Positions 16,282 through 32,134 of a stretch of 64,000 nt of DNA are shown in pieces. Under the pieces are notes generated by a model. That model had not been told where the DNA came from and searched no databases. It worked only from the letters and a program-made list of their open reading frames with translations. The position numbers were made by a program, and so were the translations under genes. Origin of the DNA: Azoarcus sp. CIB. GTDB lineage: Bacteria; Pseudomonadota; Gammaproteobacteria; Burkholderiales; Rhodocyclaceae. Each line of letters begins with the position of its first letter. Within the stretch, counting starts at the first letter, position 1. The stretch spans positions 3,658,001-3,722,000 of the forward strand of contig NZ_CP011072.1 of assembly GCF_001190925.1 (NCBI RefSeq), read 5' to 3'.

Positions 16282-18519
16282 TCAGGCATTCACTGCAGCA
16301 AGCACCGCGTTGAGCGTCGCGCTCGGGCGCATTACCTCCTCGGTCTTGACCGGATCGGCATAGTAGTAACCGCCGATATCGACCGGCTTGCCCTGCACGG
16401 CGCTGAGTTCGGCGACGATCTTCTGCTCGTTCTCAGCCAGCGTCTTGGCGAGCGGCGCGAAACGGGCCTTCAGATCCGCATCCTCACCCTGCGCAGCCAG
16501 CGCCTCGGCCCAATACAGCGCGAGGTAGAAGTGGCTGCCGCGGTTGTCGAGCTGGCCAGTACGGCGCGACGGCGACTTGTCGTTGTCGAGCAGCTTGCCG
16601 GTCGCCTGGTCGAGCGTCTTCGCGAGCAGCTTCGCCTTCGCGTTGCCGGTCTTGAAGCTCATCTCCTCGAGCGACACCGCCAGCGCGAGGAACTCGCCGA
16701 GCGAATCCCAGCGCAGGTGGTTTTCCTCGACCAGCTGCTGCACGTGCTTGGGCGCCGAACCGCCCGCGCCCGTCTCGTACATGCCGCCGCCGGCCATCAG
16801 CGGGACGATGGACAGCATCTTCGCGCTGGTGCCCAGCTCCATGATCGGGAACAGGTCGGTCAGGTAGTCGCGCAGGATGTTGCCGGTCACCGAGATGGTG
16901 TCCAGCCCGCGCGCCACGCGCTCCAGCGTAAAGCGCATCGCGCGTACCTGCGACATGATCTGGATGTCGAGGCCGCTCGTGTCGTGATCCTTCAGGTACG
17001 TCTGCACCTTCTTGATCAGCTCGTTCTCGTGCGGACGGTACGGGTCGAGCCAGAAGATGGCCGGCATGCCCGAGTTGCGTGCACGCGTCACGGCGAGCTT
17101 GACCCAGTCGCGGATCGGCGCGTCCTTGACCTGGCACATGCGCCAGATGTCGCCTTCTTCCACGTTCTGCGACATCAGCACTTCACCGGTGTCGAGGTCG
17201 GTGATGTTCGCGACGCCGTCTTCCGGCATCTCGAAAGTCTTGTCGTGCGAGCCGTATTCCTCGGCCTGCTGCGCCATCAGGCCGACGTTGGGCACCGTGC
17301 CCATCGTCGCCGGGTCGAAGTTGCCGTGCCACTTGCAGAAGCTGATCATCTCCTGGTAGATGCGGGCGAAGGTCGATTCCGGCATTACGCACTTGCTGTC
17401 GTACTGCTTGCCGTCGGCGCCCCACATTTTCCCGCCGGAACGGATCATGGCGGGCATGGAAGCGTCGACGATGATGTCGTTGGGCGAATGGAAGTTCGTG
17501 ATGCCCTTGGCCGAGTCGACCATCGCCAGACGCGGACGGTGCTCCTGGCAGGCGTGCAGGTCGCGGATGATCTCGTCGCGCTGCGATTCGGGCAGCGTCG
17601 CGATCTTCTCGTACAGCGTGGCCATGCCGTTGTTGACGTTGATGCCCAGCTCGTCGAACAGCTTGCCGTGCTTCTCGAAGGCTTCCTTGTAGTAGATCTT
17701 CACGCAGTGGCCGAAGACGATGGGGTGCGACACCTTCATCATCGTCGCCTTCACGTGCAGCGAGAACAGGATGCCCGCCTTGCGGCAGTCTTCCATCTGC
17801 GCTTCGTAGAACTCGTACAGCGCCTTCTTGCTCATGAACATCGAGTCGACGATCTCGCCGTCGAGCAACGCGACCTTCGGCTTCAGCACGACGGCCTTGC
17901 CGCTCTTCGTGATGAGTTCCATCTTCACGTTGCGCGCGCGGTCGAGCGTCATCGACTTTTCACCGTGGTAGAAGTCGCCGTGCTCCATGTGCGAGACGTG
18001 GGTCTGCGACCACTGCTTCCATTCGCCCATCGAGTGCGGGTGCTTCTTCGCGTAGTTCTTGACTGCCGCAGGCGCGCGACGATCGGAGTTGCCTTCGCGC
18101 AGCACCGGGTTCACCGCGGAGCCGAGGCACTTGCCGTAACGCACCTTCAGCGCCTTTTCTTCCTCGGTCGTCGGGTTCTCCGGGTAGTCGGGGACCGCGT
18201 AGCCCTTCGACTGGAGCTCCTTGACGCAGGCGATCAGCTGCGCAACGGAAGCGCTGATGTTCGGCAGCTTGATGATGTTGGTGTTCGGATCCTGGGTCAG
18301 GCGGCCGAGTTCGGCGAGGTTATTCGGGACCTTCTGAGCGTCGGTCAGGCAATCCGAGAATTCAGCCAGCACGCGGGCCGCGACCGAGATGTCGGTCTTC
18401 TGGATCGTCACACCGGCCGGCGCCGTGAACGTCTCGATGATCGGCAGCAGCGAATAGGTCGCCAGCAGGGGCGCCTCGTCGGTGAGCGTGTAGATGATCG
18501 TCGAACTCTTGTCTGTCAT
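16282..18519 (-). CDS. icd2: NADP-dependent isocitrate dehydrogenase, monomeric type
   Basis: A 745-residue protein, the usual length of the monomeric enzyme and unrelated in overall sequence to dimeric Icd. Characteristic segments are [44 protein letters not shown] and [12 protein letters not shown]. It catalyses the same reaction as Icd but lacks the AceK-phosphorylated loop. The ATG at 18519 follows GGGAGAAATGC; an upstream in-frame extension has no such site. On the minus strand a TATAAT (18631-18636) is a likely -10. The gene is divergent from aceK, and the shared 307-bp region carries two palindromes. Confidence 0.96.
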
Positions 18520-18826
18520 GCATTTCTCCCGGATTATCTCTATATGGCGCGAAGCCAGGCCGACGCTTGAACCGACCGGAGTACACCCCAGATTGCGGGA
18601 TTGCACCCGGACCTCTTTAGACGACCGCTTATTATAAACCTGCACCGACAGCAGTTTGGCGCAATTCCGATAAATCCGATCTTATATAAGACACAAGATG
18701 TCTCATAAGACATAAACACCGGACCCGATCGACGCGCCATGATCCGTCGGGCAACGCGTTCGCAGCGCGTTAGAATCGATCGCATTCGTCCTGTTGCCAC
18801 GCCGCCATAACCGTGACGAGGAAGCC
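18520..18826. other. Divergent icd2/aceK promoter region
   Basis: The 307 bp contain no ORF. On the minus strand TATAAT at 18631-18636 with no good -35 suggests an activator-dependent icd2 promoter starting near 18624. On the plus strand TAGAAT at 18771-18776 is a candidate aceK -10. Two AT-rich palindromes lie between (18680-18691 and 18698-18713). Confidence 0.55.
18679..18713. promoter_or_regulatory. Tandem palindromic operator candidate between icd2 and aceK
   Basis: TCTTATATAAGA (18680-18691) is a perfect 12-bp palindrome. ATGTCT-CATA-AGACAT (18698-18713) is a second inverted repeat centred 20 bp away, two helical turns. Both contain the heptamer ATAAGAC. The first palindrome, extended to ATCTTATATAAGAC, recurs exactly upstream of aceA. 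Its centre lies about 61 bp upstream of the predicted icd2 start, a usual activator position. Confidence 0.55.
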
Positions 18827-20596
18827 ATGGAAGCACCGACGGGAGAACACGTCCTTGCCCAGTCGATCGCACAGACACTGATCGAGGGCTTCAACAAGCA
18901 CTACCGCATCTTCCGCGAGACCTCCCGGCGCGCGAAGGAAAGCTTCGAGGCCGCCGACTGGCAGGCCCAGCTCACCGCGGTGCGCGACCGCGTGCAGTTC
19001 TACGACGATCGCGTCGAAGAGACGGTGCGCCGCCTGCACGAGGAGTTCGATGCCGATTCGGTCGACGACGACACCTGGCAGCAGGCCAAGCTCCACTACA
19101 TCGGCATCCTGATCCGCCACAAGCAGCCGGAACTCGCAGAGACCTTCTTCAATTCGGTGTGCTGCAAGATCCTGCACCGCACCTACTTCAATAACGACTA
19201 CCTGTTCGCGCGCCCGGCGATCTCCACCGAATACATGGAGTCCTACCCGCCGGTGTACAGCAGCTACTACCCGCGCGATGCGGGTCTGCGTGCCACCGTG
19301 TGCCGCATCATCGAGGACTTCGACTGGCAGCGCCCCTTCGAAGACCTCGACCGCGACATCGACCTGATCCTGCACACCGTGCACCGGCACCTCGGCGAGT
19401 GGCCCGACATGGAGGTCAATTGCCAGATCCAGGTGCTGTTTTCGGCCTTCTACCGCAACAAGACGGCCTACATCATCGGCAAGGGCATCAACGGCTACCA
19501 GGAATACCCGTTCGCGATTGCGGTGCGCCACAACGCCTCGGGGCGCCTGGAGATCGACACCATCCTGCTCGACCCGTGGCGCATCTCGGTGCTGTTCTCA
19601 CTGTCACGCGCCTACTTCCTCGTCGACATGGAAGTGCCGTCCGGCTACGTCCAGTTCCTGCGCTCGATCATGCCCAACAAGCACCGCTCGGAGCTCTACA
19701 CGATGCTAGGACTGGGCAAGCAGGGCAAGACGATGTTCTTCCGCGATCTCATCGCACACCTGCGCCACTCCAACGACCAGTTCGTGATCGCGCCGGGCAT
19801 CCGCGGTCTCGTGATGCTGGTATTCACGCTCCCCTCCTACCCCTACGTGTTCAAGGTCATCAAGGACGTGTTCGGGGCCTCCAAGAACATGGATCGCGCC
19901 ACTGTGAAGCGCAAGTACCTGATGGTCAAACGTGTCGATCGCGTGGGCCGCATGGCCGACACGCTGGAGTTCTCCAACGCCGCCCTGCCGCTGGCGCGCT
20001 TCAATCCGGAACTACTCGAGGAATTGCGCAGCCTCGCGCCGACCGCCTACGAGAGCGACGGCGACTCGGTCGTCATCAAGCACCTGTACATCGAGCGCCG
20101 CATGACGCCGCTCAACATCTACCTCGAGCGCGCCACCGACGAACAGGTCGAGCACGCCGTGCGCGAATACGGCAACGCGATCAGGGAGATGGCCACGACG
20201 AACATTTTCCCCGGCGACATGCTGTGGAAGAACTTCGGCGTCACGCGCTACGGCCGCGTGGTGTTCTACGACTACGACGAGATCGAGTACATGACGGACA
20301 TGAACTTCCGTCACATCCCCGAGGCGCCCTACCCGGAGATGGAGATGTCGAGCGAGCCGTGGTATTCCACCGGGCCGATGGACGTCTTTCCAGAGGAATT
20401 CGCAACCTTCCTGCTAGGCGCCCCGCGCGTGCGCCAGGCCTTCCTGAAACACCACCGCGACCTGCTGACGCCGGCCTTCTGGCAGCGCACGCAGGCGTCT
20501 ATCCGCAGCGGCTACGTCGAGGACTTCTTCCCCTATCCCGACGAACTGCGCTTCTGTCACCTGCATCCGTCCCGCGACCGCCGCAGCGGCGCCTGA
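18827..20596 (+). CDS. aceK: Isocitrate dehydrogenase kinase/phosphatase
   Basis: A 589-residue bifunctional enzyme that phosphorylates dimeric Icd to divert isocitrate into the glyoxylate bypass, and reverses this. The ATP-binding segment APGIRGLVMLVFTLPSYPY and the following VFKVIKD lysine are intact, as is the catalytic region FPGDMLWKNFGV and the YDYDEIEYMTDMNFR stretch. The ATG at 18827 is preferred over an upstream TTG because GACGAGGAA precedes it. It is divergent from icd2 rather than in an aceBAK operon. Its stop is four bases from the stop of convergent soxZ. Confidence 0.97.
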   Translation: MEAPTGEHVLAQSIAQTLIEGFNKHYRIFRETSRRAKESFEAADWQAQLTAVRDRVQFYDDRVEETVRRLHEEFDADSVDDDTWQQAKLHYIGILIRHKQPELAETFFNSVCCKILHRTYFNNDYLFARPAISTEYMESYPPVYSSYYPRDAGLRATVCRIIEDFDWQRPFEDLDRDIDLILHTVHRHLGEWPDMEVNCQIQVLFSAFYRNKTAYIIGKGINGYQEYPFAIAVRHNASGRLEIDTILLDPWRISVLFSLSRAYFLVDMEVPSGYVQFLRSIMPNKHRSELYTMLGLGKQGKTMFFRDLIAHLRHSNDQFVIAPGIRGLVMLVFTLPSYPYVFKVIKDVFGASKNMDRATVKRKYLMVKRVDRVGRMADTLEFSNAALPLARFNPELLEELRSLAPTAYESDGDSVVIKHLYIERRMTPLNIYLERATDEQVEHAVREYGNAIREMATTNIFPGDMLWKNFGVTRYGRVVFYDYDEIEYMTDMNFRHIPEAPYPEMEMSSEPWYSTGPMDVFPEEFATFLLGAPRVRQAFLKHHRDLLTPAFWQRTQASIRSGYVEDFFPYPDELRFCHLHPSRDRRSGA

Positions 20597-30482: not shown

Positions 30483-30651
30483 CCGTCACGGGACCGCGCT
30501 GCACACGCCGGCCCCGGTCTTGACCCTGCCCCTGCGCGCGACCGATCTTGCGCGCCGCAGCAGTATTTCATTTCACAACGCCGACCTCGATCTCACAATG
30601 TGAAACCATGCTCGCAACTCGTTGATTTTTTTGCCTCAAATAATTTCTTAT

Positions 30652-30665
30652 ATCTTATATAAGAC
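30652..30665. promoter_or_regulatory. Palindromic operator candidate upstream of aceA
   Basis: ATCTTATATAAGAC is identical over 14 bp to the site between icd2 and aceK. It ends four bases before the aceA -35 box, about 45 bp upstream of the predicted start. An extra TCTTAT half site lies at 30646. Confidence 0.6.
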
Positions 30666-30668
30666 TTA

Positions 30669-30697
30669 TTGCTGCAAAGCGAGATCGTCCCTATACT
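30669..30697 (+). promoter_or_regulatory. aceA promoter
   Basis: TTGCTG and TATACT are separated by exactly 17 bp. Predicted start is near 30704. The shared palindrome abuts the -35 box, as expected for an activator site. Confidence 0.6.
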
Positions 30698-30820: not shown

Positions 30821-32134
30821 ATGACCCTGACCCGCGAACAGCAAATCGCCGCCCTCGAGAAAGACTGGGCCGAAAACCCCCGCTGGAACGGCATCAAGCG
30901 CGGTTACAGCGCCGCCGATGTCGTCCGCCTGCGCGGCTCCCTGCCAATCGAGCACACGCTGGCCAAGCGTGGCGCCGAGACGCTGTGGGCGAAGGTCAAT
31001 GGCGGCGCGAAGAAGGGCTATGTGAATGCGTTCGGCGCGATCACTGCCGGTCAGGCGATGCAGCAGGCCAAGGCCGGCCTGGAAGCCGTCTATCTGTCGG
31101 GCTGGCAAGTTGCCGCCGACGGCAACACCTCCGAAACCATGTACCCGGACCAGTCGCTGTACGCCTACGACTCGGTGCCGACCATGGTTCGCCGCATCAA
31201 CAACACCTTCAAGCGTGCCGACGAGATCCAGTGGTCACGCGGCATCAACCCGGGCGACCAGGAATTCATCGACTACTTCCTGCCGATCGTCGCTGACGCG
31301 GAAGCCGGTTTCGGCGGCGTGCTGAACGCCTTCGAACTGATGAAGAACATGATCGCCGCCGGTGCCGCCGGTGTGCACTTCGAAGACCAGCTGGCTGCCG
31401 TGAAGAAGTGCGGCCACATGGGCGGCAAGGTGCTGGTGCCGACGCAGGAAGCGATCGAGAAGCTGATCTCGGCCCGCTTCGCCGCCGACGTGATGGGCGT
31501 GTCGACGCTGATCCTGGCCCGTACCGACGCGGAAGCCGCGAACCTGATCACGTCGGACCACGACGCCAACGACAAGCCCTTCCTCACTGGCGAGCGCACC
31601 CAGGAAGGCTTCTACCGCGTGAAGAACGGTCTCGAGCAGGCCATCAGCCGCGGTGTCGCCTACGCCCCGTACGCCGACCTGGTGTGGTGCGAGACCGGCA
31701 CGCCGGACCTCGGCTTCGCCCGTGAATTCGCACAGGCCGTGCTCGCAGCCTGCCCGGGCAAGCTGCTGTCGTACAACTGCTCGCCGTCGTTCAACTGGAA
31801 GAAGAACCTCGACGACAAGACCATCGCCAAGTTCCAGGACGAGCTGTCGGCGTTGGGCTACAAGTACCAGTTCATCACGCTGGCCGGCATCCACGTCAAT
31901 TGGTTCAACACCTTCCAGTTCGCGCACGCTTACGCTCGCGGCGAAGGCATGAAGCACTACGTCGAAATGGTCCAGGAGAAGGAATTCGCCGCTCGCGAGA
32001 AGGGTTACACCTTCGTTTCGCACCAGCAGGAAGTCGGCGCCGGCTACTTCGACGACGTCACCACGGTCATCCAGGGTGGTTCGTCCTCGGTCAAGGCCCT
32101 CACCGGCTCGACCGAAGAAGAGCAGTTCCACTGA
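30821..32134 (+). CDS. aceA: Isocitrate lyase
   Basis: A 437-residue glyoxylate-bypass enzyme cleaving isocitrate to succinate and glyoxylate. The catalytic loop KKCGHMGGK places the active cysteine at residue 197, and [13 protein letters not shown] forms the substrate-binding segment. The ATG follows GAGAAGGAATTGTC. The gene is monocistronic, unlinked from glcB, and ends at two hairpins. Its upstream region shares a palindrome with icd2/aceK, suggesting coordinated control at the isocitrate branch point. Confidence 0.98.

Follow-up and report, generated by a model that had tools for sequence, protein, structure and literature searches.

A palindrome upstream of icd2 in Azoarcus sp. CIB is a predicted operator of the GntR-family regulator SdhR

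Introduction

Which regulator acts on the isocitrate branch point of Azoarcus sp. CIB, and through which genes? The question is raised by a 14-mer, ATCTTATATAAGAC, found in a stretch of 64,000 nucleotides of the genome of this organism (hereafter the window). The start of icd2 (at about 18519, minus strand) and that of aceK (at about 18827, plus strand, as inferred from alignments of relatives) flank the 14-mer, which therefore lies within a divergent promoter, about 166 bp from the icd2 start codon and about 141 bp from the aceK start codon. The initial annotation of this DNA had proposed that a regulator without a name couples aceA, aceK and icd2 through this site. Here we ask what the regulator is likely to be, which of the two divergent genes it would control, and how far the same site reaches in the genome and in related bacteria.

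Results

The palindrome and its copies in the genome

The features of the two loci in the window are as follows.

16282-18519, minus strand: icd2, monomeric NADP-dependent isocitrate dehydrogenase (PF03971, TIGR00178)
18631-18636, minus strand: likely icd2 -10 box TATAAT, 49 bp from the operator centre
18679-18692, no strand: candidate SdhR-type operator ATCTTATATAAGAC upstream of icd2, its core matching the SdhR consensus core
18693-18698, no strand: outer half-site ACAAGA, one mismatch to ATAAGA, on the icd2-distal side
18698-18713, no strand: inverted repeat ATGTCT-N4-AGACAT (N4 = CATA), perfect 6+6, exact in this genome
18827-20596, plus strand: aceK, isocitrate dehydrogenase kinase/phosphatase, which the site probably does not control (PF06315 and PF20423, NF002804)
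30646-30665, no strand: candidate SdhR-type operator of aceA, the outer half-site TCTTAT followed by ATCTTATATAAGAC
30669-30697, plus strand: conserved aceA promoter TTGCTG-17-TATACT, immediately downstream of the operator
30821-32134, plus strand: aceA, isocitrate lyase (PF00463, NF011645)

The letters agree with what had been described at first. At 18680-18691, TCTTATATAAGA forms a perfect palindrome, whose centre is 20 bp from that of the second inverted repeat, and within the window the 14-mer recurs once, upstream of aceA at 30652-30665. When up to 2 mismatches to ATCTTATATAAGAC were allowed, nothing beyond these two places was found in the window on either strand, and shuffled versions of the window gave a mean of 0.03 matches at the same threshold (100 shuffles).

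The complete genome consists of one contig (C1) of 5,257,030 bases. A chance match had been considered very unlikely from the start, and the genome bears this out: instead of many random copies, the TCTTATATAAGA core has only 3 exact copies in 5.26 Mb, against 0.002 expected from the dinucleotide composition of the window. The third exact core, at C1:2093373, has mdh on one side and, on the other, a GntR/UTRA gene that heads the sdh operon. A fourth site, GTCTTTTATAAGAC (C1:3276737-3276750), has one mismatch to the consensus and is located between the divergent acnB and acnA genes. The set of icd2, aceK and aceA named in the initial annotation was thus incomplete, since mdh/sdhR-sdh and acnB/acnA also have sites.

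With up to one mismatch to GTCTTATATAAGAC, the operator core of the published consensus described below, 5 places were found genome-wide, against 0.02 expected. With up to 3 mismatches the motif occurred at 21 places and a reversed control at 30, and because the motif is not commoner than its control at this threshold, only close matches carry weight. Chance alone would give about 14 places with exactly 3 mismatches, and the locus L007 and the sites with 3 mismatches were set aside.

A fifth site, GTCTTGTATAAGAC (C1:3308373-3308386, one mismatch), lies about 50 bp past the aspA stop codon and is without an evident target; no open reading frame of at least 90 amino acids is listed downstream of it on the same strand.

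The regulator is very probably SdhR

The gene beside the third copy of the core encodes a protein with GntR and UTRA domains.

C1:2092598-2093323, minus strand: sdhR, 242 residues, GntR domain (PF00392, 6e-21) and UTRA domain (PF07702, 3.3e-31)

It is divergent from mdh and is followed downstream by sdhC, sdhD, sdhA and sdhB (mdh and sdhA were named by family model, the other three genes by reading their translations). The 14-mer in front of it ends 48 bp ahead of the sdhR start. A literature search with the core string leads to a paper (PMC4494728) in which the palindrome TCTTATGTCTTATATAAGACATAAGA is given as the published consensus of SdhR, a predicted regulator of the HutC subfamily, with reference to J Bacteriol 2012;194:3234. 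Our ATCTTATATAAGAC agrees with the operator core GTCTTATATAAGAC at 13 of 14 letters, and in two relatives (L073, L074) the full consensus TCTTATGTCTTATATAAGACATAAGA is found in front of sdhR without a single difference. The icd2 site and the SdhR system have in common the core, the full consensus in these two relatives and, in this genome, a GntR and UTRA gene that leads the sdh operon. The icd2 site differs from the consensus in that it has only one outer half-site (TCTTAT/ATAAGA), which is present with one mismatch (ACAAGA) on one side and absent on the other.

Because the third core copy, beside sdhR, matches the published SdhR consensus, the palindrome is very probably recognised by SdhR, a regulator that had been predicted before and whose gene adjoins those for succinate dehydrogenase. 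The regulator that the initial annotation had left unnamed would then have both a published motif and a gene in the same genome, behind the same site. The passage on SdhR in PMC4494728 gives the motif alone, and icd2, acnB/acnA and aceA are not mentioned as targets in it; they may already be listed in the J Bacteriol 2012 study that it cites. No experimental study of SdhR was found among the literature matches listed.

Compared with the HutC equivalog model TIGR02018 (NCBIfam), SdhR scored 119.8 bits, where the cut-off is 220. As this score is far under the cut-off, the effector of SdhR cannot be borrowed from HutC.

Operator-to-promoter spacing and the sign of regulation

The distance from the operator centre to the -10 box of icd2 is 49 bp in 13 of 15 loci of the genus, and 48 and 50 bp in the others; a consensus promoter scan of 18500-18850 returned no promoter-like site. 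At aceA the distance from the operator centre to the -10 box is 32-33 bp in 27 of 30 loci (the best 30 of 54). The scan did not return TTGCTG-17-TATACT because its -35 box, TTGCTG, is weak (only 3 of 6 letters agree with TTGACA), and it favoured another candidate at 30572-30599. At the shared intergenic region of mdh and sdhR, the operator centre is 19 bp from the proposed -35 box of mdh in 21 of 26 loci and 20 bp from that of sdhR in 23 of 26; the proposed -35 box of mdh is TTGACA. If these boxes are the true ones, the operator centres are estimated at about -45 for aceA, -54 for mdh, -55 for sdhR and -61 for icd2 (the -10 box was taken as -12 to -7 and the spacer as 17, and distances to a proposed -10 box were counted to its first base). 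The arrangement at acnB is another one: read in the direction of this gene, only 2 bp separate the end of the core from TATAAT, which places the operator within the proposed promoter.

The near-constant spacing between operator and promoter hints at activation at aceA and icd2. In the mechanism that we propose, a dimer of SdhR would bind TCTTATATAAGA, and the outer TCTTAT half-sites would perhaps recruit more subunits. The UTRA domain would let SdhR detect a metabolite, and SdhR would set the transcription of mdh, of its own operon with the sdh genes, of aceA, icd2 and acnB, and perhaps of acnA. It would activate aceA and icd2 from upstream (with centres near -45 and -61 and weak -35 boxes), and would repress acnB from the operator inside the proposed promoter. 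Judged from spacing only, this assignment of signs is about an even bet. Against activation stands the fact that the aceA scan preferred another promoter candidate, and that no named activator is among the solved relatives listed for SdhR. The 22 that are listed include 10 named repressors and 0 named activators. Residues 84-242 match PDB 3cnv_A, "Putative GntR-family transcriptional regulator" (E 2.9e-41), and the nearest full-length solved relatives, YvoA and DasR, are both named repressors.

In the competing view, to which we give somewhat less than an even chance, SdhR would simply repress each of these promoters. Most members of the HutC subfamily are repressors, and the names of YvoA and DasR as well as the operator inside the acnB promoter fit such a role. 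The remaining promoters fit it less well. There (aceA, icd2, mdh and sdhR) the operator precedes the proposed promoter boxes by a nearly constant distance, a position from which simple occlusion would be unusual.

icd2 rather than aceK is the probable target

In the genus (17 genomes) the site was found before icd2 in 15 genomes, with the exact core in 13; it has 2 mismatches to the 14-mer in G340 and 3 in G357, and was not found at icd2 in G358 and G365. Of the 15 icd2 loci, 13 have TCTTGT or TCTTAT as the outer half-site, read in the orientation of icd2, and the other 2 have TCTTTT. Conservation of the site in relatives, which the initial annotation had asked for, is therefore seen at icd2 in 15 of 17 genus genomes as well as at aceA, where the exact core was present in all 30 loci examined (the best 30 of 54 genomes).

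The site lies between both divergent genes here and in most of the genus, so that it could control aceK as much as icd2, with a single operator coupling the kinase/phosphatase to the dehydrogenase. We consider this unlikely. Four of the 17 genomes (G340, G356, G366 and G369) have a gap of about 2.8 kb from the aligned start of icd2 to that of aceK, and each of them has its site close to icd2. The distance to the icd2 TATAAT box is nearly constant. Moreover, when the aceK loci were scanned in their own right (the best 30 of 42 genomes), a site with up to 3 mismatches was found upstream only in this genome; icd2 was present in the same locus for 11 of these 30. Because the site stays by icd2 where the two genes are far apart, a role of aceK is unsupported, and aceK as a conserved target was no longer taken as the default reading. 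It is probably a bystander of the site. The proposal that one regulator couples aceA, aceK and icd2 accordingly stands for the conserved site shared by aceA and icd2 and falls for aceK.

In G366, a gene for glucosylglycerol-phosphate synthase is located between icd2 and aceK (L187, 3942-6227, plus strand).

Taken together, these comparisons of sequence lead us to give a probability of about 0.87 to the joint reading that 18679-18692 is a predicted SdhR operator and that icd2 is its target.

The search for the icd2 site was extended to the 80 best of 595 relatives, with up to 400 bp of upstream sequence each (less at contig ends). A site with up to 3 mismatches was present in 15 of these 80 loci. 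Two belong to members of the genus (L199, L229) and 13 to other genera, namely Comamonas (5), Janthinobacterium (3), Pandoraea (2), Tepidicella (1) and other Burkholderiales (2). For each upstream stretch with a site, at most 1 of 100 shuffles scored as well. The remaining 65 loci had none at this threshold, among them those of Thauera, Azonexus, Dechloromonas and Zoogloea, and 0 of the 19 Acinetobacter loci among the best 80 had one. Because 65 of the best 80 icd2 loci are without the site, the link to icd2 comes and goes.

Conservation of the site with sdhR in the family and the order

The family set comprised 61 genomes, in which SdhR was found in 59, aceA in 54, aceK in 42 and the exact core in 51. 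The 75 sites that are listed come from 39 of the 51 site-bearing genomes: 33 are before sdhR (median distance from site centre to aligned start, 58.5 bp), 36 before aceA (median 145.5 bp), and 6 at neither gene, the icd2 site of this window included. Among the best 30 of 59 genomes, the sdhR locus has the 14-mer with up to 2 mismatches in 28 of 30; the exceptions are L060, with 4 mismatches, and L072, for which there is only 64 bp of upstream sequence. At acnB, all 17 genus genomes have ATTATATGTCTTTTATAAGAC without any change, and acnA adjoins in 16 of the 17 loci.

The order was represented by 300 genomes. Of these, 111 have both SdhR (at E <= 1e-50) and the core, 35 have SdhR only, 39 the core only, and 115 neither (Fisher p 4e-19, with no correction for kinship). 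The core occurred 279 times in total, against 36 for the reversed pattern. The exact core was absent in 35 of the 146 SdhR-positive genomes.

It might be argued from these counts that another regulator binds the sites and that SdhR is merely among its targets. The binding by SdhR is deduced from published comparative genomics and from co-occurrence, and the core is present in 39 of 154 genomes without an SdhR match at E <= 1e-50. Of those 39 core-only genomes, however, 24 were examined, and 20 of these have the core flanked by mdh on one side and by a more distant SdhR-like gene on the other, in a locus that also contains sdhC. For these SdhR-like regulators of only 32-40% identity (L019-L022, L296-L311), the operator in the mdh-sdhC region is still the same one. 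Moreover, both family genomes that lack SdhR (G320, G346) lack the site, and 33 of the 75 listed sites lie just before sdhR, as in autoregulation. A separate regulator is therefore improbable in our estimate, and SdhR is preferred. Among the other four core-only genomes examined, G174 has the core before aceA, G085 and G116 have it without a recognised neighbour, and the same is true of G040, for which the first of three sites was examined.

In 30 loci of the order, with one site taken per genome, 14 sites are at mdh/sdhR, 6 at aceA, 3 at acnB, 1 at acnA, 1 at a dimeric icd gene and 3 near argF or argD, and 2 are unrecognised. The locus L023 has the exact core upstream of a gene for the dimeric type of NADP-isocitrate dehydrogenase; the type of Icd therefore changes while the operator recurs.

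The exact core is also located upstream of argF (L025) and argD (L039, L041) in other Burkholderiales. It is possible that the SdhR regulon extends to arginine synthesis there.

The second inverted repeat

The inverted repeat ATGTCT-N4-AGACAT has 0 mismatches here and 3-6 in 14 other icd2 loci, and was for this reason rejected as a conserved second operator. In the three nearest relatives, 4-5 of its 6 pairs are kept with changed letters. The outer half-site ACAAGA, which stands between both palindromes, is better kept than the repeat. These results suggest that the second inverted repeat is probably due to chance or is a weak, strain-specific accessory site. That the first palindrome too is a chance sequence without function is hardly credible, for although the second repeat behaves just so, the core is kept in position while the surrounding sequence drifts, and only 0.002 copies per genome are expected.

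Discussion

Our analysis suggests that icd2, aceA, acnB and mdh/sdhR-sdh are the likely targets of SdhR in this genome. In E. coli, IclR controls aceBAK. SdhR would resemble IclR as a transcription factor that governs the glyoxylate bypass; IclR, however, belongs to another family and binds another site, whereas here mdh, sdh, acn and icd2 share an operator and aceK is not evidently included. In Shewanella, PdhR and PsrA control aceBA, sdh and gltA (PMC5343134), and in this respect too one regulator spans the TCA cycle and the glyoxylate bypass. PdhR and PsrA are other regulators, those of gammaproteobacteria, and the name SdhR is absent from the main text of that paper.

A wider view is that SdhR is a dual regulator of the whole isocitrate node in Betaproteobacteria. 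With one metabolite signal, icd2 and aceA would be activated and acnB repressed, while mdh and the sdh genes would be tuned together with sdhR; icd genes, of either the monomeric or the dimeric type, would have been gained or lost by the regulon several times. We offer this picture tentatively and hold it to be rather doubtful as a whole.

The SdhR-like regulators of 32-40% identity with the same operator make a good case for a study of recognition residues. For Azoarcus sp. CIB, what had been taken for the site of an unknown regulator can now be assigned to a named and testable one. The predicted regulon is concrete, with four conserved operators by the genes for malate, succinate and isocitrate dehydrogenase, aconitase and isocitrate lyase, and the transcriptional split of isocitrate between the TCA cycle and the glyoxylate bypass would thereby become directly testable.
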